The translations under genes were made by a program, and so were the position numbers. Below the pieces are notes generated by a model, which saw only the letters and a program-made list of their open reading frames with translations, made no database searches and was not told the DNA's origin. A stretch of 64,000 bases of DNA from positions 3,537,001 through 3,601,000 of the forward strand of contig NZ_CP132910.1 in assembly GCF_030846775.1 (NCBI RefSeq). Reading direction: 5' to 3'. How positions within the stretch are numbered: the stretch's first letter is position 1; each line of letters starts with the position of its first letter. The stretch comes from Geothrix sp. 21YS21S-2 (GTDB lineage: Bacteria > Acidobacteriota > Holophagae > Holophagales > Holophagaceae). Positions 7,413 to 58,681 of the stretch are shown one piece after another.

Positions 7413-9812
7413 CTAGACCTCCGGCCAGTGGTGCTTGGGGTACCTGCGGGCCAGCCCCGGCCTCATCTCCTTGTAGACCCGCTGCCAGAACCCCGCCAGG
7501 TCCGTCGTGACCTGCACGGCGCGGTTGTTGGGGGCCAGGAGGTGGAGCACCAGGGGAACCTCGCCCCCGCCGATGGCGGGACCCTTCTTGAGGCCGACGA
7601 AGTCCTGGAGCCGGGACGCCACCCAGGGGGCGCCGTCCCCGTAGTTCACGCGCAGGCGGCGCCGGGGGATCTGGATCCATTCCGGTGCCCAGGCGTCCAG
7701 GAGCCGCGCGGTCTCGGCCCCCAGGGCACGGCGCACGGCGCCGGGCCAGTCCGCGGCCTCCAGTTCCTTCAGGCTGGCGAGGCCCTCGCAGGCGCCGGTG
7801 AGCAGCACCTCGCGCAGACCGGTCTCGTCCGGGATGGCCAGGTCGGGGCGCAGCCTCGCCAGGAAGGCCAGGCGGGGCAGAAGGCCTTCCAGGGGGGCCG
7901 CGCCCGTGGCGGCCCGGGCCAGCACCTGGGCCGCGCCGGGGTGGCCGGGAGGCGCGGGGCGCCGGCTCTCCATGAGGAGCAGGTCCTCGAACCAGAGGCG
8001 GGAATAGAGGTCAACGCGGCCCGTGCCCCCGTTGAAGGCCAGTTCCTCGGTGTCGCGGATGGCGTCCGGGAACGCGTCCAGGAGCCAGTCCGGCTCCAGG
8101 CGCGAGGCGGCCTGGACCTGGATCTGCCCGCCCACGCCGTCGGCCTCCAGGGCCAGGATCCACCCCGCCCGGCGCACCCGGCACTGGGGCGCGAGGCGCG
8201 CGCCGCCCCCGCCCACCAGGGTGCAGGTGCCGTTGCCGCCCACCCGGGCGATGCGGTCGGGGTAGGCCGCAACCATGGCGCGCAGGAGCCCCTCCTCGTC
8301 CTCCTCCAGGGCGCCGCCGCCCAGGGCCCTGAAGGCCAGCCGCGCCTGGCGCAGGGCCGCAGGATCCGTGCCCGCAGGCTCCAGGTAATGGTCGATGCGG
8401 GCGAGGACATCGGAATCCAGCGCATGGCCCTGGGGGGCGCCTCGGGGGGCCAGGTCCTTGCGGGCGACCAGGTCCCCGGTTTCCAGGAGCACGGCCGCGA
8501 GCCTTGCGAGGTTGGGGATGCCGGCGTCCTCGCCGGCGGTCACCAGGCGCGCCAGGCGGGGGTGGAGGGGCAACCGCGCCATGCGCCGGCCCAGGGCCGA
8601 GATCCGACCGTCCTCCATGGCCCCCAGGCTCTCCAGGAGCTTGCCGCCGGCCTCCAGGGCCTTTGCCGGGGGCGCCTGGAACCACTCCAGGCCGGCGCCG
8701 ATGTCCAGGTCGGCCAGGGCCAGAAGCGGTTCGGCCAGATCCGTGCGAAGGAGCTCGGCGGCATCGAAGGGAGGCCGGGCATTGAACTCGGCCAGGGAGA
8801 AGAGCCGCAGGCAGACCCCGGGCCCGGTGCGCCCGGCCCGCCCCGCGCGCTGCACGCAGCGGGCCTGGCTGATGCGGACGGTGCGCAGCCCCGGCAGGCC
8901 CGACCAGGGGGAGTGGAAGGCCTCCCGCCCCAGGCCCGAGTCCACCACGGCACCCACCCCCTCCAAGGTCACGGAGCTTTCGGCCACGTTGGTGCTGAGG
9001 ATGACCTTGAATCGCTCGCTGGGGGACACCGCCTCCTGCTGCGCATCGAACGGGAGGCTCCCGTGCAGGGGCAGAAGCCGCAGCCCGTGGGTCTCGGCGG
9101 TCCGGGCGCAGCTGCGCAGGCAGCGGCGGATTTCGCCGGCGCCGGGGAGGAACACCAGGGTGTGGCCCTTGAGGCCCTCCCGGTAGAGCCGGTCCACGGC
9201 ACCCGCCACCTGGTCCTCCAGGGGGGCGGACTCGGGCCGCTGCTGGTGCCGGATCTCCACGGGCCACTGGCGCCCGGGGCAGGCCAGGGCGGGGGCCTCC
9301 AGGAAGGCCGAGATGGGCCCGGGGTCCAGGGTGGCGCTCATCACCCCCAGCCGCAGGTCCGGGCGCGCCCCCTTCCGCAGCCGGCGCAGGAGGGTGATGG
9401 CCAGGTCCGTCTGCAGGTGGCGTTCGTGGAACTCGTCCAGGAGGACCGTGGAGATGCCGCGCAGGGCGGGGTCGTCCTGGAGCCTGCGCAGCAGCAGCCC
9501 CTCGGTGACGAAGCGCACGCGGGTGGCGCGGGAGACCTTCTGCTCGAAGCGCACCGCGTAGCCCACGGCGCCGCCCAGCGGCTCCCCCAGTTCCGCGGCC
9601 ACCCGGGCCGCGGCGAGGCGCGCCGCCAGGCGCCTTGGCTCCAGCACCCAGCACTCGCCTTCGGCGAGCATCCCCGCATCAAGCAGGGCCCGGGGCACGC
9701 GCGTGGTCTTGCCCGCGCCGGGCTCCGCCCCAAGAACCAGGCAGCCCCGGTCGCGCAGCGCCTCGACGATCGCCGGGAGGAAGGGGTCGATGGGCAGGGG
9801 GGAAAGGGTCAA
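7413..9812 (-). CDS. hrpB: ATP-dependent helicase HrpB
   Basis: This is a DEAH-box RNA helicase-family protein of 799 residues, matching the HrpB length of about 810. The N-terminal helicase core has Walker A GAEPGAGKTTRVP, the DEFH box in LLDEFHERHLQTDL, and the helicase C motif RAGRTGPG. The C-terminal HrpB-specific domain is present (LRVNYGDGAPWVASRLQDF, and HHWPEV at the end). HrpB's substrate is not well defined in any bacterium. The TTG start at 9812 overlaps the TGA of the upstream amidotransferase-like gene in a TTGA and has GGAGCGG upstream. It is convergent with the ABC transporter. Confidence 0.9.
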   Translation of the reverse strand: MTLSPLPIDPFLPAIVEALRDRGCLVLGAEPGAGKTTRVPRALLDAGMLAEGECWVLEPRRLAARLAAARVAAELGEPLGGAVGYAVRFEQKVSRATRVRFVTEGLLLRRLQDDPALRGISTVLLDEFHERHLQTDLAITLLRRLRKGARPDLRLGVMSATLDPGPISAFLEAPALACPGRQWPVEIRHQQRPESAPLEDQVAGAVDRLYREGLKGHTLVFLPGAGEIRRCLRSCARTAETHGLRLLPLHGSLPFDAQQEAVSPSERFKVILSTNVAESSVTLEGVGAVVDSGLGREAFHSPWSGLPGLRTVRISQARCVQRAGRAGRTGPGVCLRLFSLAEFNARPPFDAAELLRTDLAEPLLALADLDIGAGLEWFQAPPAKALEAGGKLLESLGAMEDGRISALGRRMARLPLHPRLARLVTAGEDAGIPNLARLAAVLLETGDLVARKDLAPRGAPQGHALDSDVLARIDHYLEPAGTDPAALRQARLAFRALGGGALEEDEEGLLRAMVAAYPDRIARVGGNGTCTLVGGGGARLAPQCRVRRAGWILALEADGVGGQIQVQAASRLEPDWLLDAFPDAIRDTEELAFNGGTGRVDLYSRLWFEDLLLMESRRPAPPGHPGAAQVLARAATGAAPLEGLLPRLAFLARLRPDLAIPDETGLREVLLTGACEGLASLKELEAADWPGAVRRALGAETARLLDAWAPEWIQIPRRRLRVNYGDGAPWVASRLQDFVGLKKGPAIGGGEVPLVLHLLAPNNRAVQVTTDLAGFWQRVYKEMRPGLARRYPKHHWPEV

Positions 9813-11120: not shown

Positions 11121-11148
11121 AAAAAGCCCATAGGAATATGGGCTTTTT
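11121..11148 (+). terminator. Intrinsic terminator of ssb
   Basis: A perfect 12-bp inverted repeat, AAAAAGCCCATA (11121-11132) and TATGGGCTTTTT (11137-11148), is separated by the loop GGAA and followed by further T. The flanking A and T runs make it look able to terminate in either direction, although no minus-strand gene ends here. Confidence 0.88.
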
Positions 11149-11243
11149 TCATGATTGAAGCCTCGAGTCCAGGCTGGGGTCGCCCTACCATCCCGGGAAC
11201 CATCGGGCACTCCCGGACATTGGGTAACGATGGAAGTGCCCCG

Positions 11244-12644
11244 ATGATGCGGTCGTTCTTTCTCTTGATGGCGCTCCTGGCGGCGGCGGGCCTCCACGCC
11301 CAGACGCAGGGGGCTGCCCCAGCTTCGGTGGCGCCAGGTGCAGGGATGGAGTTCTGGACCGGCCGGCCCCGGTGTGGTGCCAATTGCATGAACGGAAGCC
11401 CTCCATCCAGGGCCTATTTCAAGGAAGCCCGCAGGCAGGGCATCCAATGGCTCCGCTTGGCCTACGACAAATGGAAACCAGCCAGACGTGATTTCCTGCT
11501 GGGAGACGCCAGCCGGTACGAGGGACTGGTGGCGGCCGATCTGAAAACGCTCAAAGCCACCCTCGATCGCGCCCATGCGGAAGGGATCAAGGTCGTGGTG
11601 GTGCCCCTCTCCCTGCCCGGGATGCGCTGGAGCCAGAACAACGGCGCCCGATTCGACGGACGGATCTGGCGGGACAAGGAAGGGTGGAGACAATCGGCGA
11701 GGTTCTGGGGCGACCTCGCCAAGGAGCTGAAGGGCCACCCGGCCGTGGCAGGGTACAACCTGGTCAACGAACCCGCCCCTGAACGGGAGGGCGGCGCAGC
11801 GGAAGATGCTTCGCCGGAGGAACTGAAAGCGTGGTACGCCACCGTGAAAGGGTCCGCCTGCGATCTTCCCGGGTTCTACAAGCTGGTCCTGGCCGCCGTC
11901 CGGAGGGTTGACCCTGACATGCCTGTGCTGCTGGATTCGGGGTGGTACGCACGGGCCACGGGTTTCACGTACTGGCCGGATCCGGTGGGTGATCAAAAGA
12001 CGCTCTACGCCTTCCACATGTATGAACCCTACCCTTGGTCCAGTCCGGCGAATTTCCGGCGGGCCGAACCGTGGGTATACCCCGGCCCGGTTCCTTCCGT
12101 TTCCGGGCGGGAGCAGGAATGGGATCGGGCGGCGATAGCCCGTTTTCTGCAGCCGGCCTACGACTGGGCCAGGGAACAGGGGATCCCGGCCCATCGCATT
12201 GTGGTCGGCGAATTCGGTTGCCACCGGCTCTCGCCGGGGTGCGCCACCTATCTGGAGGACGTGCTCTCGGTGGTGGAAGGGCAGGGGTCCCACTGGGCCT
12301 TCTACGCGTTCCGGGAAGACACGTATGACGGTTTCGGCTACGAATTGGGCACCTGGAAGGCCCCTTGGGCCTTCTGGCAGGCCCAGAAAAAAGGCCGGCC
12401 CTGGAAATGGGAGCGGACCACGACGTCTCTCTATGAACCCATCGCCCGCCGCCTCAAGGCCGAAAGGGAAAGGCCCTCGCGCCCGGCACCTTCCTGCAGT
12501 AGAAACGGATCGTGTTCCCCATGGGCAGCGCCAGGCTCATCGCGGACACCAGGAAGGCCAGGGGACCAAGAAGCGTCCCCAGGAGGAGGTGCAGCCAGGT
12601 CCAGGGGCTTCGGCGCAGGGAGATGCCCGCGGGGTTGCCCATGA
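11244..12644 (+). CDS. Secreted glycoside hydrolase family 5 enzyme (cellulase-like) with an antisense-overlapping C-terminal tail
   Basis: This is a signal-peptide-bearing (MMRSFFLLMALLAAAGLHA) retaining beta-glycosidase of clan GH-A. The acid/base Glu lies in YNLVNEPAP (about residue 176) and the nucleophile Glu in VVGEFGCHR (about 323). WLRLAYDKW near the start and HWAFYAFRE near the end of the barrel also fit GH5. The recognisable domain ends near SLYEPIARRLKAE (about residue 403). The frame then runs 63 codons further, antisense to the last 191 bp of the convergent methyltransferase gene, giving a Ser/Gly/Pro/Arg-rich tail unlike any GH5 domain. The start at 11244 or 11247 puts the signal peptide first. 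The polysaccharide substrate is unknown. Confidence 0.82.
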   Translation: MMRSFFLLMALLAAAGLHAQTQGAAPASVAPGAGMEFWTGRPRCGANCMNGSPPSRAYFKEARRQGIQWLRLAYDKWKPARRDFLLGDASRYEGLVAADLKTLKATLDRAHAEGIKVVVVPLSLPGMRWSQNNGARFDGRIWRDKEGWRQSARFWGDLAKELKGHPAVAGYNLVNEPAPEREGGAAEDASPEELKAWYATVKGSACDLPGFYKLVLAAVRRVDPDMPVLLDSGWYARATGFTYWPDPVGDQKTLYAFHMYEPYPWSSPANFRRAEPWVYPGPVPSVSGREQEWDRAAIARFLQPAYDWAREQGIPAHRIVVGEFGCHRLSPGCATYLEDVLSVVEGQGSHWAFYAFREDTYDGFGYELGTWKAPWAFWQAQKKGRPWKWERTTTSLYEPIARRLKAERERPSRPAPSCSRNGSCSPWAAPGSSRTPGRPGDQEASPGGGAARSRGFGAGRCPRGCP

Positions 12645-51318: not shown

Positions 51319-53955
51319 ATGAAAACCTCCGAACTCCGACAGCGCTTCCTGGACTATTTCGCCTCCCGCGGCCACCGCGTGGTCGCCTCCAGTTCCGTGG
51401 TGGGCCCCGCCGACGATCCCACCGTGATGTGGACCAACGCCGGCATGGTCCAGTTCAAGGACCTCTTCCTGGGCAAGGAGAAGCGCGACTACACCCGGGC
51501 CGCCACCTCCCAGAAGTGCCTGCGGGCCGGGGGCAAGCACAACGACCTGGACCAGGTGGGCTTCACCGCCCGCCACCACACGTTCTTCGAGATGCTCGGC
51601 AACTTCAGCTTCGGCGACTACTTCAAGGCCGACGCCATCGCCTACGCCTGGGAACTGGTCACGGGGCCCGTCGACAAGGGCTGCCTGGGCCTGGACGCCT
51701 CGCGCCTCTGGGTATCCGTCTTCGAAGGCGCCGACGGCGTCCCCGCCGACGACGAGGCCCGGGAGATGTGGGCCAAGGCGGGCGTGCCCCGCGACCACAT
51801 CCTGGCCTTCGGCAAGAAGGACAACTTCTGGCAGATGGGCGACACCGGCCCTTGCGGCCCGTGCAGCGAGATCCACTACGACCGCGGACCCCAGTACGCC
51901 GGCGACGACCTCCCCAACGGCGAGGGCGACCGGGTCATGGAGATCTGGAACCTCGTCTTCATGCAGTACGACCGCGACGCCCAGGGCAACCTCAAGCCCC
52001 TGCCGCGGCCCAGCATCGACACGGGCATGGGCCTCGAGCGCGTGGCCTCCATCCTCCAGGGCGTGGACAGCAACTACGAGATCGACCTGTTCAGGCCCAT
52101 CTTCGAGGCCATCTGGAAGCGCGCCAAGGTCGATCCCGCCCAGCGCGCCGAGACCACCAACCGCACCGCGAGCCAGGTCATCGCCGACCACATCCGCGCC
52201 GCCACCTTCATGGTCTACGACGGCGTGGTGCCCAGCAACGAGGGCCGCGGCTACGTGCTGCGCAAGATCATCCGCCGGGCGCTGCGCTTCGGCCGCAAGC
52301 TGGGCATCGAGGGCCGCTTTTTCGCCGAACTCGCGCCTTCCGTCTTCGCCGCCATGGGCGACGCCTACCCCGAGCTGGAAGGGGAGCTGAGCCGCATCGC
52401 CAAGACCCTCGCCCGCGAGGAGAACCAGTTCAGCCTCACCCTCACCACCGGCCTCAAGCAGCTGGAATCGCTCAACACCGCCTCCGGCGCCATCCCCGGC
52501 ACCGAGATCTTCAAGCTCTACGACACCTTCGGCTTCCCGGTGGACCTGGTGGAGGACTGGTGCCGGGAGCGGGGGCTGGCCTGCGACCTGGAAGGCTTCA
52601 ACGCCGCCCTGCGCGAGCAGAAGGCCAAGGGCCGCGCGGCCATGAAGGTGCATGACATCCGCCTGGGCGGGGACCTCGCCGCCCTGGCCGACCTGCGCGC
52701 CACGGCCTTCCTGGGCTACGACGTCACCGAGGCCCAGGGCAAGGTGGTGGCCCTCTTCGACGCCGGGAGCCGGCGCGTGAAGGAGCTCACCGGCACGGGC
52801 TTCGTCCTGCTGGACCACACCCCCTTCTACGCCATGAGCGGCGGGCAGGTGGGGGACACCGGCGTCCTGCGGGCCGACGGAGTCACCTGCCAGGTCACCG
52901 ATACCACGGCGCCGGCCCCCCGCCGCCACCTCCACCACGTGGCGGTCTCCGGCAGCCGGGCCCTGCGCGAGGGCGAGACGGTCCTGGCCACCGTGGACGC
53001 CGAGCGCCGCGCCCGCATCCGGGCCCACCACACCGCCACGCACCTGCTCCACGCCGCCCTGCGCGACGTGCTGGGCACCCACGTGAAGCAGGCCGGTTCC
53101 GTGGTGGACGCCGATCGCCTCCGCTTCGACTTCAACCACTTCGCCCCCCTGGAGCCCGACCAGGTGCTGGAGATCGAGCGCCTCGTCAACGAGCAGACCC
53201 TGGGCGCCTACCGCACCACCAGCCAGGTCATGCCCATCGAGGAGGCCCTGGCCGCCGGCGCCATGGCGCTGTTCGGCGAGAAGTACGGCGACACCGTGCG
53301 GGTCGTCTCGGTGCCCGGGTTCTCCCGGGAGCTGTGCGGCGGCACCCACGTCGCCAACACCGGCGAGATCGGCCTGGTGAAGATCGTCAGCGAAGGCGCC
53401 GTTGCCGCCGGCGTGCGCCGCCTGGAGGCCGTGGCCGGCGCCGCGGCCCTGCACCGCCTCCAGGAGGACGAGCACCTCCTGGGCGCCCTGGCCCGCCAGG
53501 TGAACACCCCCCGCGAGGCCCTGGGCGGCGTCATCGCCGCCAAGGAGGCCCGCATCCACGAGCTGGAGCGGGAGCTGAAGGAAGCCAAGCTCAAGGCCGC
53601 CGGCTCCGGCGGCGCCGCCGAGCAGGTGGAGCAGGTGGGAGGCCGCACCGTGGTCACCCTTTCCGTGGAGGGCATCGACGGTCCCGCCCTGCGCGAGATG
53701 ATGGACCAGGTGCGCACCCGCCACCGCAGCGCCGTCATCGCCCTGGCGTCCAGGCTCGCCGAGGACAAGCTGGCCATCCTGGTGAGCGTGTCCCTGGACC
53801 TGGTGGGCGGCGCCGACGCCGGCGCCCTCCTGAAGGCCATGGCCCCCTTCGTGGACGGCCGCGGCGGCGGCAAGAAGGAACTGGCCCAGGGCGGCGGCAC
53901 GAAGCCCCAGGGCCTGCCCGAAGCCTTCGCCGCCCTCAGGGCCGCCCTGGCCTAG
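51319..53955 (+). CDS. alaS: Alanine--tRNA ligase
   Basis: AlaS charges tRNA-Ala and edits mischarged Ser and Gly. The 878-residue protein has the class II core (MWTNAGMVQFKDLFLG, RHHTFFEMLGNFSFGDYFK), the editing domain with HTATHLLHAAL and the zinc ligand segment ELCGGTHVANTGEIG, and the C-Ala domain (KELAQGGG near the end). ATG 51319 has GTGGGA upstream. Length is standard. The next gene starts at the base after its stop codon. Confidence 0.97.
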   Translation: MKTSELRQRFLDYFASRGHRVVASSSVVGPADDPTVMWTNAGMVQFKDLFLGKEKRDYTRAATSQKCLRAGGKHNDLDQVGFTARHHTFFEMLGNFSFGDYFKADAIAYAWELVTGPVDKGCLGLDASRLWVSVFEGADGVPADDEAREMWAKAGVPRDHILAFGKKDNFWQMGDTGPCGPCSEIHYDRGPQYAGDDLPNGEGDRVMEIWNLVFMQYDRDAQGNLKPLPRPSIDTGMGLERVASILQGVDSNYEIDLFRPIFEAIWKRAKVDPAQRAETTNRTASQVIADHIRAATFMVYDGVVPSNEGRGYVLRKIIRRALRFGRKLGIEGRFFAELAPSVFAAMGDAYPELEGELSRIAKTLAREENQFSLTLTTGLKQLESLNTASGAIPGTEIFKLYDTFGFPVDLVEDWCRERGLACDLEGFNAALREQKAKGRAAMKVHDIRLGGDLAALADLRATAFLGYDVTEAQGKVVALFDAGSRRVKELTGTGFVLLDHTPFYAMSGGQVGDTGVLRADGVTCQVTDTTAPAPRRHLHHVAVSGSRALREGETVLATVDAERRARIRAHHTATHLLHAALRDVLGTHVKQAGSVVDADRLRFDFNHFAPLEPDQVLEIERLVNEQTLGAYRTTSQVMPIEEALAAGAMALFGEKYGDTVRVVSVPGFSRELCGGTHVANTGEIGLVKIVSEGAVAAGVRRLEAVAGAAALHRLQEDEHLLGALARQVNTPREALGGVIAAKEARIHELERELKEAKLKAAGSGGAAEQVEQVGGRTVVTLSVEGIDGPALREMMDQVRTRHRSAVIALASRLAEDKLAILVSVSLDLVGGADAGALLKAMAPFVDGRGGGKKELAQGGGTKPQGLPEAFAALRAALA

Positions 53956-54417
53956 ATGCGCCTCCTTCCCGCCCTCCTCCTCGCCACGGCCCTGGCCGCC
54001 CAGGCGCCCTCCCTGCCGCGCCTGGCGTGGCTGGAGGGCGCCTGGGTGGGCGAGGCGGACGGCGTCCTCCAGGAGGAGACCTGGAGCGCCCCGGCGCAGG
54101 GCAACCTCCAGGGCATGTACCGGGAGCTCAAGGGCGGCCGGATCCTGGTCATGGAGCTCCTCTCCTTCTCGGAGGAGGCCGACGGCCCCTGGCTCACCAT
54201 GCGCCACTTCGGACCGGGCCTGAAGCCCCGGGAGGAAACCCCCCTGCGCTGGCGCGTGGCCGAGGCCGCCCCCGGCCGGGCGCGCTTCGTGAACGAACCC
54301 GGCGGCGCGACCCTGGACTACGTCCGGGACGGCGATACGATGCGGGTCCGGCTGGAGATCCCCCGCAAGGAGGGGAGCCGGGTGGAGACGTTCGTCTTCC
54401 GGCGGAAGCAAAGCTAG
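53956..54417 (+). CDS. Small secreted DUF6265-like protein
   Basis: This 153-residue protein has a signal peptide (MRLLPALLLATALAAQA) and the pattern LAWLEGAWVGE...EETWSAP...LQGMYRELKGG that I associate with the DUF6265 lipocalin-like family of unknown function. It starts immediately after the alaS stop, so it is probably read through from that transcript. No specific ligand can be named. Confidence 0.75.
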   Translation: MRLLPALLLATALAAQAPSLPRLAWLEGAWVGEADGVLQEETWSAPAQGNLQGMYRELKGGRILVMELLSFSEEADGPWLTMRHFGPGLKPREETPLRWRVAEAAPGRARFVNEPGGATLDYVRDGDTMRVRLEIPRKEGSRVETFVFRRKQS

Positions 54418-54597
54418 CGCGCCGCGGATTTCCTTGGGGACCCAGGGTCAAGGGTCCTCGCGAGGGTGCCGGGCTCCTGCGGCACGTTTCCGCATCGACA
54501 AGGTGCAACGGTGATCGAACCAGATCGCCGATAACCCCTTGCCAAAGGTTTGGAGGGAGCTAGACTGGTTTGTGAAAAACACGCACTGGATTTTAGA

Positions 54598-56937
54598 ATG
54601 AACAAATATTTAATAGACTTATTTTCTTTCTATATGCTTCTAACAACGGGAAATCTGGTCGCCCAGGTGTCCGCCAACGGCATCATGCCGGCCGAAGTCG
54701 ACCTTCGGGCAAGCGGGTGGAGGACCACGCTCCAGAATGGGAATCTGACGTTCGCAATGCCCATCTCCGCCGTTCCAGGGGAGGTGCCGATTCCTGTAAG
54801 CTTCGGGTTCGACGCGACGTGGCAGGCCAGGCTGTGGGGGCACACGGAAAACGAAGGGGAACGCTGCGCCGCCCGGGTCGTCCGGTGCCGGATGGATTGG
54901 CCGATTTCCGCGGGAATCCATTTCGGCTATCTGACCGACAATCTCTACGGCGACGCTCCGGTTTCGTCCATGCCCGGGGCCCCTTCCGGCCGGGGGATGG
55001 TCGTTCTGGAGACCGGGAAGCAGATCCCGGATCCCCGATGGACGGCCCTTGCGGGCGACCCCGGCCTGGGCGCCGCGTTGAACCTGCCCGAGGCCTTCGG
55101 GTTTGCGTCGGCCGCCCTCCAAGGCGTCCGAGTGGATTCCACCGCGACCTGTCTACAATGCACGACCAGCGAGGCCGGACTCGGAGCGCAGTGCCAGAAC
55201 CTGATGCCAGGGCTGGCCCCCTCGGGATTCGGCGGGCAGGGTGAGCATCTGGGATCCTTCCGTATCGTGCTGGATGAGCGTCTCGCCCGTGTCTATTGCT
55301 ACGCGGCGGAAAAGGGGGCATGGTTGCCGGTGATTTGGACAGACCGGTCCGGCCATTGCGTCACCTTCAAATGGGAGCGCTCCACGACCGGCATACCGCC
55401 CGGCTTCAAGTCCATCACCAAGGTCACCGCGTTGAATCAGCATTCCCAGGGCGTGGTCGTGAGGTGGGCCGACCCCGGGAGCATCACCTTCCTTTCGGAC
55501 CTCTGCCGCGTGGATTTCGTTGGGGTTCATGCCCCCTCGGCCTTGATCCAGGGTTACGGGGGGCCGCCTTCCCGCGGTCCTGCAGGATTTTCGCTCCCCG
55601 CCCATGATCGCCTTTTCATTGTCGGCCAGATGGATGCGGGCCTTCTATGCACGCCGGGTTCCCTGGCAATCGGAAGCTGCGCTGCGTTGCCCCAGCCAAG
55701 CTGGGCGGATTCCGGATGCTCGCCATCCGTGACCCCAACTGTTTCTCCGGAGGCTTGGATCACCGACTCCCCCAACCGTACATGGCGTTTCACCTACGAT
55801 GACAACGCAGCCGAACTGAAGTCGATCACCGACCCGATGGGAGTCGTTACTTCCTTCTTGTATTCCACGTATTACAGCGCCGCCACGAATTACGTAAGGG
55901 GGGTTTCCGAAGTCCGCGCGGTGGACACCGACTCGAATCACCGATCCATACGCTGGATGCGGGCTTTTCCGGATGGTTCAGTCCCCATGACCATCAAGGT
56001 GGAGAACCGGTGGGATTTGGACACGGGGCACCCAGATTGTTTTCATCTGATCACCCTTCCGGCGGACGCCTTGAATTTCGGCAACGGGGTTCCTCAACAG
56101 GATGTCTTGGAGGACGGTTCGGGGAAGACCTTGATTTCGACGTCCATCCAGTGGAGTCCCGAAGGAAGCGGGGTGAATGCAACCCTTTCGAGGGTACAGA
56201 AGATCACGATCGCCTCGGAGGGAGCGCAGGCCTGGACGACGACGTTCGCCTCCGACCCATCGGCCAGCGCAGAGGGCCACCGACTTCTCCAGGGGGATTC
56301 CATTCGATTTGCTCCCGGTGGGTTCTGGGTATACAAGATCGTCTGTCGGGGCCAAGTCACCATGGCCACCACAAATGAAGCCGAGGCTCAATCGGAGCTT
56401 GAACGGCGGCGTGAGCACGGAACCGAAAGTGCCGGCACAGGCGTAAGGTGTGAGATCGTCCGAACGTGGGTGAGTGGCGTTGATCCCATGGGGAACCACG
56501 GTGGCTTGAACGACGGTTCGGGTCAGGTGGACGCGCAGGCGCAAGCAAATAGGCAGATCATCAATAACTTGGCGATTGCCAATGATGCTGGCAAGAACAA
56601 GGCTGACTGTGAAGCACTTAACCGCTATCTGAAGTCGATTGGGGCAGCGGTACTGATAGGTGCAGGGGGTGGTGCCGTGAAGGGGGGAGAAATCCTTGGG
56701 ACTCTTGGGACATTGTTTGGGGGCCCGGTGGGGGCCACGACGGCCTTGGGCGCAGGTGCACTCGGCGGAGCGGTCATTGGGGGATTTGCAGGGCTCGTGC
56801 CGACTTCCGTGGCTGGAGGGGTATCACTTAGGGACGCTTTTCGGAAAAACGAAGAAAATTGGAAAACAAACCACCGCGCGATTCAAAATTATTCAGACAT
56901 TTCCTGCGTAGGTGCAAAACCCGAAGTCAGGTATTAG
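54598..56937 (+). CDS. Exported Rhs/YD-like protein with C-terminal glycine-zipper domain (candidate polymorphic toxin)
   Basis: This 779-residue protein starts with a signal peptide (MNKYLIDLFSFYMLLTTGN(LVAQ)). Its body resembles Rhs/YD proteins: an N-terminal NGNLTFAMPISAVPGE segment, then RTWRFTYDDNAAELKSITDP with MGVVTSFLY (about 393-422), similar to a YD repeat; full Rhs repeats are not seen. Residues about 680-742 form a long Gly/Ala zipper (GAGGGAVKGG, LGAGALGGAVIGGFAGL) able to make a membrane hairpin, followed by a charged tail. Base composition is AT-richer than the neighbours. Two small paralogous membrane genes follow. I infer a membrane-active effector with immunity genes; this is not proven. 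The ribosome binding site is weak. Confidence 0.65.
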   Translation: MNKYLIDLFSFYMLLTTGNLVAQVSANGIMPAEVDLRASGWRTTLQNGNLTFAMPISAVPGEVPIPVSFGFDATWQARLWGHTENEGERCAARVVRCRMDWPISAGIHFGYLTDNLYGDAPVSSMPGAPSGRGMVVLETGKQIPDPRWTALAGDPGLGAALNLPEAFGFASAALQGVRVDSTATCLQCTTSEAGLGAQCQNLMPGLAPSGFGGQGEHLGSFRIVLDERLARVYCYAAEKGAWLPVIWTDRSGHCVTFKWERSTTGIPPGFKSITKVTALNQHSQGVVVRWADPGSITFLSDLCRVDFVGVHAPSALIQGYGGPPSRGPAGFSLPAHDRLFIVGQMDAGLLCTPGSLAIGSCAALPQPSWADSGCSPSVTPTVSPEAWITDSPNRTWRFTYDDNAAELKSITDPMGVVTSFLYSTYYSAATNYVRGVSEVRAVDTDSNHRSIRWMRAFPDGSVPMTIKVENRWDLDTGHPDCFHLITLPADALNFGNGVPQQDVLEDGSGKTLISTSIQWSPEGSGVNATLSRVQKITIASEGAQAWTTTFASDPSASAEGHRLLQGDSIRFAPGGFWVYKIVCRGQVTMATTNEAEAQSELERRREHGTESAGTGVRCEIVRTWVSGVDPMGNHGGLNDGSGQVDAQAQANRQIINNLAIANDAGKNKADCEALNRYLKSIGAAVLIGAGGGAVKGGEILGTLGTLFGGPVGATTALGAGALGGAVIGGFAGLVPTSVAGGVSLRDAFRKNEENWKTNHRAIQNYSDISCVGAKPEVRY

Positions 56938-57077
56938 GCTCCGTGTCGAAATATCATGAACACATCGCCATCTAAAATATTTCATTTATGCCTTTTTGAA
57001 ACGAATTGCCCATGGTTTTTTTGCGCAATGGTCTAGTGCCAACCAGGCATGGGAAATCAAATGGTTTGGAGTGTCGA

Positions 57078-57314
57078 ATGGCCATAAGTCGATCACGTAT
57101 TTTACAGCTTGCAATCATAGCAATAGCTGCAGGCGGTTACCAAGCCTACATGGGTGCTCTAGGCTTGGCCCATTGTTATCTTGTTCTTCCATTGTATAAG
57201 CAGGTAATTCTAGGTATTACGATTGTGTGTGGGCTTTGTGATCTTTTGGAGTGTATAGTTAAAATGATTTTGAAATTAATTTCACAAAATTATAATAATG
57301 AACAAGGCGGGTAG
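57078..57314 (+). CDS. Small two-helix membrane protein, copy 1 (candidate immunity protein)
   Basis: This 78-residue protein has two hydrophobic segments (LQLAIIAIAAGGYQAYMGAL, then QVILGITIVCGLCDLLECIV) and a short polar tail. ATG 57078 has GGAG seven bases upstream and also aligns with the start of the second copy. It lies 140 bp after the Rhs-like gene, and its composition is AT-rich. It is paralogous to the small ORF at 57371: both begin M-x-ISRSRI-x-QL and share a later GG, G-x-x-HC and CG. The role is unknown; an immunity role is suggested only by position and by the toxin-like neighbour. Confidence 0.65.
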   Translation: MAISRSRILQLAIIAIAAGGYQAYMGALGLAHCYLVLPLYKQVILGITIVCGLCDLLECIVKMILKLISQNYNNEQGG

Positions 57315-57370
57315 CGGCCGCGGGTCGGCACGGCCGGAAGTGATAAATTACCCGATCGGGAAGGAATGAC

Positions 57371-57541
57371 GTGTCCATAAGCAGGTCAAGAATCAAGCAA
57401 TTGACAATTATCTCTATCGTTACGGGCGGTGGGTTTCCATTCATTAATTGTATTGGTATGGGGCATTGTTTTTGGGGACTTCCATTCTTCGCGCAGTCGT
57501 TATTGGTCATTTCAATTGAGTGCGGCTTTTATCTTATTTAA
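57371..57541 (+). CDS. Small membrane protein, copy 2, short and possibly frameshifted
   Basis: This 56-residue GTG-initiated ORF has GGAAGGA five bases before its start. Its start MSISRSRIKQLTIISIVTGG aligns with copy 1. Further matches are GMGHCFWGLPF and SIECG. The frame then stops at FYLI, about 20 residues short of copy 1. Shifting frame near 57523 continues FILFNVGLLDQSLG, a hydrophobic stretch like the second helix of copy 1, so a small deletion may have truncated this copy. It could be a decayed duplicate, or a functional short variant. Confidence 0.55.
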   Translation: MSISRSRIKQLTIISIVTGGGFPFINCIGMGHCFWGLPFFAQSLLVISIECGFYLI

Positions 57542-57580
57542 TGTTGGGTTGTTGGATCAATCTCTAGGCTCGTTTGCCCA

Positions 57581-57600
57581 TCGTTCTTTCTCCAGAACGA
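57581..57600. repeat. Perfect inverted repeat at the cassette end
   Basis: TCGTTCT (57581-57587) and AGAACGA (57594-57600) form a 7-bp stem with a six-base loop, 40 bp after the second small membrane gene and close to where GC content rises again. It lacks a T-run on the plus strand, so it is at best a weak terminator or a boundary repeat. The rest of 57542-57766 holds no gene I can support. Confidence 0.3.
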
Positions 57601-57766
57601 CAAATAACAGGGCAGGTAACGGGCCGCCCGTGGAGAATGGACAATTCGATGCGGCGAGCCCCGCCCCTTCTACCCCAGGCCTACAGCCCTGGGACCACAA
57701 GCGGATCGAGCATCGCGGCCGGGGTGTCGCGCTGGAAGCAGGGTTGCCTCGCCGGATGCTGCACAG

Positions 57767-58681
57767 CTAGCGCACCATCCCCATGTAGGCCATCCACAGC
57801 GCCGGTCCGTAGAACACCACCACCGGCGTCGCCAGCGCCAGCCCGCAGCCGAAGGGCAGCATCGTCTGGGCCTTGGCCTTTTTCATCAGCAGCAGCGGCA
57901 CCCCGACGGCGCTCCCCAGGAGTGCCCCCCCGAACAGGATCCCCAGCATCGGCGCCCAGCCCCAGAAGGCCCCCAGCCACGCCAGCATCTTGAAGTCGCC
58001 CATGCCGATGCCGTCGGTCCTGCGGATGAGGCGGTAGACGAGGTTGAGGGCCCAGGGCACGCCGTACCCGATGGCCAGGCCCAGCAGGCTGTCCTGCCAC
58101 GTCACGCGCTGGCCCATGAGGCTCCAGCAGGGGGCGGCCTGGAGGGCGTTGGCGAAGGTGTCCACGCGGAGGATGGTGAGCCCGGGGGCCCAGACGGAGG
58201 TGAGGTGCAGGGGCCAGATCAGCTGGGGGATCGTGAAGAGGATCCCCAGGACCATCAGCGGGAACTGGACCGCGTCGGGCAGGATGAACTCGGTGATGTC
58301 GGTGAAGAAGAGCACCAGGAGCGCGAAGCCGCACACGATCCCCTTGAGCCAGATGAGGGTGCCGAAGGGGAACACCCACACCGATCCGGCCAGGATGATT
58401 CCGCCCAGGAGCTCCACCAGAGGGTAGCGCACCGGGATCCGCCAGCCGCAGCTGGCGCAGCGGCCCCGCAGCCACAGCCAGCCCAGGAGGGGGATGTTGT
58501 GCCAGGGGCGGATGCGGGCCTTGCAACTGGGGCAGTGGCTGGGGCGCCTGACCACGTCCCGGTCGGCCTCGGCCTCCTGGGGCAGGCGGTGGATGAGCAC
58601 GTTGGCGAAGGAACCCAGCACCAGCCCGAAGGGGGCCAGCATCGCCGAAAGGAACCACGTGGGGAAATCGAAGGTCGGCAT
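57767..58681 (-). CDS. pilD: Type IV prepilin peptidase / N-methyltransferase
   Basis: PilD cleaves and N-methylates prepilins and pseudopilins in the inner membrane. The 304-residue protein has the N-terminal zinc-binding tetracysteine (CPSC 50-53 and CASC 75-78). The two catalytic aspartates are in FFTDITEFILPD (Asp128) and GIGMGDFKML (Asp229), with about eight membrane helices. An insert between the two aspartates makes it slightly longer than average. It is divergent from ppiA and not next to other pilus genes. The MglA-type GTPase in this window also fits a type IV pilus lifestyle. Confidence 0.93.
   Translation of the reverse strand: MPTFDFPTWFLSAMLAPFGLVLGSFANVLIHRLPQEAEADRDVVRRPSHCPSCKARIRPWHNIPLLGWLWLRGRCASCGWRIPVRYPLVELLGGIILAGSVWVFPFGTLIWLKGIVCGFALLVLFFTDITEFILPDAVQFPLMVLGILFTIPQLIWPLHLTSVWAPGLTILRVDTFANALQAAPCWSLMGQRVTWQDSLLGLAIGYGVPWALNLVYRLIRRTDGIGMGDFKMLAWLGAFWGWAPMLGILFGGALLGSAVGVPLLLMKKAKAQTMLPFGCGLALATPVVVFYGPALWMAYMGMVR

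Follow-up and report, generated by a model that had tools for sequence, protein, structure and literature searches.

The window analysed here, a stretch of 64,000 nt corresponding to positions 3537001–3601000 of a 5.25 Mb single-contig genome, harbours a locus best read, with a probability of about 0.74, as a horizontally acquired, Rhs-derived polymorphic-toxin cassette, in which a predicted pore-forming tail is followed by putative immunity proteins with two transmembrane (TM) segments, the whole working in a mode similar to that of Tse5/Tsi5. The tail and its immunity proteins most likely constitute a family not represented in Pfam, NCBIfam or PHROGs. Our verdict is that they form a new family within a known type of weapon, borne on an unusual chassis devoid of the Rhs shell.

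The N-terminal chassis and the missing Rhs shell

The first gene of the cassette (54598–56937, + strand) is open across 779 codons and encodes a predicted exported protein of Rhs derivation. In keeping with the original prediction of a signal-peptide protein of this length, its N-terminus is signal-peptide-like, with residues 1–22 (54598–54663, + strand) displaying a suitable hydropathy and an A↓Q pattern that is common to relatives in the alignment; the plausible cleavage site, LVA↓Q, was judged by eye. Residues ~35–550 (54700–56247, + strand) match, in BLAST searches, the N-terminal parts of Rhs proteins of 1100–1700 aa from the same family, with E-values extending to 7e-52. Structural superposition was performed with an AF2 model that derives from an 11-row alignment and has a mean pLDDT of only 54, in which the N-terminal part best fits residues 360–663 of the Salmonella bongori Rhs protein (Z 11.8), followed by residues 305–583 of RhsA and 48–336 of Tse5 (Z 10.2 in both cases). 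By comparison, in both sequence and fold, this portion of the 779-aa protein is shown to be the start of a chassis of the Rhs/YD polymorphic-toxin type, with its model covering only the first third of known Rhs shells. The YD-like segments that had been claimed for the protein are discernible, yet weak: RHS_repeat aligns with residues 407–422 (E=0.1) and TIGR01643 with residues 389–420 (E=0.06), both under the curated cut-offs.

Beyond the chassis, residues ~569–640 (56302–56517, + strand) appear to form a post-core linker or pretoxin segment. Within it, residues 575–626 match residues 940–991 of a 1166-aa Rhs ORF in the congener G002, and there the matched segment sits directly behind the core end and a DPSG at position 932; hence, the N-terminal part of the window protein is joined in frame to post-core sequence. 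Absent from the 779-aa protein are the Rhs repeats, the core end and the DPxG pair of the autoprotease motif. In place of a core-end motif and paired DPxG...DPxG before the tail, there is only DPMG at residues 412 and 629, far apart, and the core of its relatives is missing, leaving no complete Rhs/YD-repeat shell. As an Rhs toxin the protein is incomplete, being the first third of the shell fused to post-core sequence; the idea of a complete Rhs effector had to be abandoned on these grounds, and the same absences render delivery of the protein doubtful.

A collapse of the same type, out of frame, is found at two other loci. The G002 copy runs from residues 1–99 straight into 607–779, and L005, a second locus in the source genome, from approximately residues 1–48 into ~705–779. 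Within the genus, Rhs genes are frequently disrupted, examples being L024 (4410–9363, G002), which is split by a frameshift, and L028 (G001), which carries an in-frame TAG. The source genome also has two open frames with above-cut-off Rhs repeats, at ~3.81 Mb and ~2.65 Mb (L069 and L070; 1845 and 1673 aa, respectively), and a 112-aa hydrophobic ORF lies behind the second of these.

The same kind of N-terminal part bears unrelated tails at L024, L030 and L007, where a hydrophobic ORF of 110–113 aa is situated 9–14 bases behind the Rhs stop, and in most cases related N-terminal parts with other tails have other small membrane genes behind them. Variable C-terminal tails on a shared chassis are evident both from these three loci and from the presence of a window-type tail on an Rhs core in G009, a genome from another genus of the same family as the source genome. 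The three genes of the cassette are not, as such, a conserved trio with an unvarying C-terminus, since the tail attached to the N-terminal part varies.

The tail module and its small membrane genes

The toxin tail proper (residues 641–779; 56518–56934, + strand) is a module found at five loci and is predicted to comprise a helix, a glycine-zipper hairpin and a further helix, with AF2 placing the helices at residues 641–691 and 719–767. The zipper itself, as delimited by overlapping [GAS]xxxGxxx[GAST] matches, extends over residues ~684–736 (56647–56805, + strand). The Gly/Ala zipper of the original prediction is real, but it is not the literal end of the protein, as a conserved block of ~40 residues ending NW..N.RAIQNYSD..C.G..PEVRY lies behind it; AF2 returns the helices but models the zipper region poorly, with low confidence.

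Comparison shows the tail (residues ~607–779) to be a separable module. Amongst 77 genomes of the family, a profile of the tail identifies five places in three genomes, these being the window, L005 and L006 in the source genome, one locus in G002 and one in G009. In G009, the tail comes after a genuine Rhs core end, and forms a displaced tip behind another Rhs gene with a different tail. Over their last 75 residues the five tails are 40–80% identical, with invariant positions that include N754, W755, R760, Q763, S766, D767 and C770, and the full-length tails (n=3) display the hydropathy and GxxxG patterns of hydrophobic glycine-zipper helices. Nothing convincing beyond these five was found in 396 genomes from the phylum, the one marginal match having an E-value of 0.009 over 56 residues, and a scan of genome contigs with a single peptide pattern, which distant kin could escape, returned G009 as the sole match. 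Searches of the tail against Pfam, NCBIfam and PHROGs gave nothing above cut-offs, those against plasmids, phages and viral contigs gave no match, and the tail profile retrieved nothing of weight from the PDB; none of the families searched identified the C-terminal region as a non-toxin domain. A DUF6861 match on the G009 tail (E 0.0018) was sub-threshold, matches to FOXO_KIX and TIC20 were taken as chance, and helical matches to MakA and AhlB (Z 6–7) are within the noise for long helices and were set aside.

Glycine-zipper hairpins are known in ordinary membrane proteins too, and this, along with the lack of a matching toxin family, could be taken to mean that the tail is a membrane anchor or surface-presentation domain, with the small membrane proteins as its assembly partners. 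This is improbable, as chassis of the same kind carry this tail or other tails interchangeably, and the tail occurs as a displaced tip in G009. In addition, the small genes retain open frames at loci with a broken tail, and diverge faster than the tail does, unlike the partners in a housekeeping complex.

Two small genes follow the tail in the window. Copy 1 (57078–57314, + strand), which begins with ATG behind a Shine–Dalgarno (SD)-like GGAG (57068–57071, + strand), encodes a 78-aa protein that is predicted to be a two-TM immunity protein from its family, leave-one-out searches and hydropathy. Copy 2 (57371–57541, + strand), which begins with GTG behind an SD-like AAGGA (57361–57365, + strand), encodes 56 aa and is a paralogue of copy 1 by homology and hydropathy, the two being ~45% identical (tblastn E ~5e-12). 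Two tandem paralogous small membrane genes had been predicted, and are indeed present. Copy 2 is C-terminally shortened, because the resemblance to copy 1 carries on, in the same frame, past its own TAA; even so, it retains two hydrophobic segments. The proposal of duplicated immunity agrees with the presence of two homologous copies of a putative immunity gene directly after the tail, the second of them truncated. All small proteins of this type identified here (8/8) have two hydrophobic segments, and it is this hydropathy that suggests their membrane nature. A Pfam search of the eight returned nothing above cut-offs, and an Rfam search of the window gave no match.

With regard to the pairing of tail and small gene, a profile of the small proteins detects eight genes in the 77 family genomes, and 8/8 lie directly behind the five tails (two each in the window, L006 and G002; one each in L005 and G009), none being found away from a tail; the next candidate has an E-value of 0.067. 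The profile was built from the neighbours of tails, an objection that the leave-one-locus-out test alone answers: in every instance the small genes of the omitted locus rank at the top of 2,389 ORFs, with copies 1 and 2 of the window recovered at E=2e-8 and E=0.0089, respectively. Comparison thereby shows that behind every copy of the tail module there stand one or two genes, all of one family, for small membrane proteins with two helices, a pairing seen at five loci only, all from one bacterial family and representing few independent events. Position and exclusive co-occurrence both point to an immunity-type gene directly downstream, for which neutralisation is predicted, and the combination of toxin tail and membrane immunity is well supported by comparison across related genomes. 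These results point to the existence, within one family of Acidobacteriota, of a toxin-tail family as yet unnamed and of an immunity family that matches it.

The failure of tail and small genes to match any family would also be expected if an unrelated cell-surface protein had come to lie beside two unrelated small ORFs by chance. Such a neighbourhood is effectively excluded, because the arrangement recurs at four other loci, in different surroundings, and the leave-one-out ranking agrees. Equally, the small proteins are short, hydrophobic, tandemly duplicated and AT-rich, as might be anticipated of separate membrane-active peptides (holin-like, or a second toxin component) with no role in immunity. 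This is very unlikely given that the small genes sit directly behind every tail, and that open frames beside broken toxin genes are expected of immunity genes, and not of the partners of a lost toxin.

The small-gene tree separates both window copies and L005 from the genes of G009, L006 and G002, a main split that is also suggested by the tails. Tandem pairs arose at least twice, once in the window lineage and once before the divergence of L006 and G002, with modest supports (81–93). Between these last two loci, dN is 0.11 for the tail and 0.63–0.73 for the small genes, given as dN and not dN/dS because synonymous sites are saturated in most pairs; in this one locus pair, the immunity genes are thus ~6 times more different than the tail at amino-acid-changing sites. 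Immunity proteins more variable than their toxins have likewise been described for contact-dependent inhibition (CDI) ionophores (PMC11630599). The divergence of the immunity genes, and their repeated pairing in tandem, make natural variants available for the question of specificity.

Genomic setting and the state of the window copy

The cassette is flanked at one end by alaS and a 153-aa gene, and at the other by a prepilin-peptidase-like gene in convergent orientation. For G002, ~330 bp without any match to cassette sequence separate alaS from the prepilin-peptidase-like gene; in the congeners G001 and G004 the alaS interval is longer, containing a cysteine-synthase-like gene in the former and several genes in the latter. 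The insertion site is variable. When window positions 53955–57767 were compared with L065, L066 and L067, the interval differed in every congener examined. The base composition of the cassette is foreign and AT-rich, with GC contents of 0.62 for the N-terminal part, 0.55 for the tail and 0.38–0.41 for the small genes, as against 0.69 for the window; small genes at the other loci have values of 0.28–0.37. The GC content at third codon positions (GC3) is 0.94–0.97 for neighbouring genes, and in the N-terminal part has been raised to 0.74. At L006, an ORF judged by eye to be IS91-type-transposase-like (11131–11961, minus strand) is located ~450 bases beyond the tandem small genes, and possibly bears on the movement of the cassette.

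Two accounts may be given of the present state of the toxin gene in the window copy. One account, to which we give close to an even chance and which is a sub-case of the cassette reading, such that their probabilities overlap, holds that the gene is a dead remnant, created by an in-frame internal deletion of the Rhs core, and that the orphan immunity genes alone are working. Of the four sister toxin genes, three have broken frames, in two cases through the same N-to-tail collapse, and their small genes are intact in 5/5 cases. Shuffles reach open frames of this kind in 0.0005–0.005 of cases for each of the five, a surprise that is overstated for hydrophobic proteins, as the shuffles keep base composition alone. 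The loss of repeats, core end and DPxG pair from the window protein argues in the same direction, as does the retention of orphan immunity genes in other glycine-zipper systems, namely ExiC/ExiD (PMC12744356). Tse5, moreover, needs its shell and protease motif, and does not kill without the latter (PMC10684867). Set against this, all 779 codons are open, the join is at or near domain boundaries, GC3 of the N-terminal part is raised as described, and the part that is visibly cut short is copy 2 and not the toxin ORF.

The contrary account, of a working shell-less Rhs effector, is rather unlikely. Such a protein would be Sec-exported, possess neither cocoon nor autoprotease, and nonetheless present its zipper pore module, which the diverged two-TM immunity proteins would hold in check. 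If true, it would mean that encapsulation is dispensable for a pore toxin of the Rhs type, and the shell-less form in any case raises the question of whether the cocoon is necessary to an Rhs membrane toxin. Having lost the Rhs repeat shell in frame, the window copy may be either such an effector or, with a slightly higher probability, a toxin gene in the course of being lost, with an immunity gene that would be kept against relatives with an intact toxin; we lean slightly towards a remnant with live immunity. A literature search on Acidobacteria, signal peptides and Rhs found nothing but a 2012 survey.

Proposed mode of action and related systems

For the cassette as a polymorphic-toxin locus, we infer that the glycine-zipper hairpin of the tail would insert into the inner membrane of the target cell, where inserted tails could oligomerise via the zipper into an ion-conducting pore and depolarise it. 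The small proteins, residing in the producer's inner membrane, would attach to the helices of the zipper, thereby preventing insertion or assembly. Membrane activity of the tail is a prediction from its sequence, and the membrane-active effector originally proposed is to this extent in agreement with zipper and hydropathy; a complete Rhs form of that effector is not.

Tse5/Tsi5 and EsxX provide precedents for this proposed pore/immunity mechanism. As in the window, Tse5 of Pseudomonas aeruginosa is an Rhs-derived protein with a membrane-acting C-terminal part (PMC9637101, PMC10684867), and Tsi5 a small immunity protein with two predicted TM regions. In Tse5, however, the shell is complete and is accompanied by an autoprotease and a PAAR-like T6SS end, whereas the window protein starts with a signal-peptide-like segment and is devoid of a shell; the source genome has no T6SS sheath gene, as PF05591 (VipA/TssB sheath) was without a match and the E. 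coli control positive. Profile and phmmer searches of the PDB revealed no chain of the Tse5-CT/Tsi5 type, and a PDB sequence search returned no Rhs chain.

EsxX is membrane-depolarising, has a C-terminal glycine zipper and is accompanied by more than one immunity gene; one immunity pair binds the zipper, and a membrane pair stops action from outside (PMC12744356). EsxX/ExiAB/ExiCD of Staphylococcus aureus and TelE (PMC12744356, PMC10434224) resemble the window cassette in having a zipper toxin, multiple immunity genes and orphan immunity genes in relatives, but employ a T7SS LXG chassis rather than Rhs, with six TM helices in ExiC and ExiD and soluble ExiA and ExiB. The CDI ionophore toxins and their CdiI proteins (PMC11630599) share depolarising polymorphic tails, a putative glycine zipper and variable immunity, and differ in their CdiA two-partner secretion and five-helix bundle. 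For EsxX and the CDI ionophores alike, the similarity noted here to the window cassette is one of features.

Orphan Rhs tips of Salmonella and other enterobacteria (PMC3967940, PMC7043789) consist of displaced tails and immunity genes with no delivery part. The G009 copy resembles these, whilst three of the loci described here instead retain an N-terminal piece fused to the tail, the intervening part being lost. The Rhs gene upstream of the G009 tail (L025, contig 24, ~7700–8400, minus strand) has another tail and a 97-aa membrane ORF of its own. Among sequences outside the immunity family, this ORF scores best in the leave-one-out searches (E 0.02–0.1), and it is possibly a distant relative of the immunity family.
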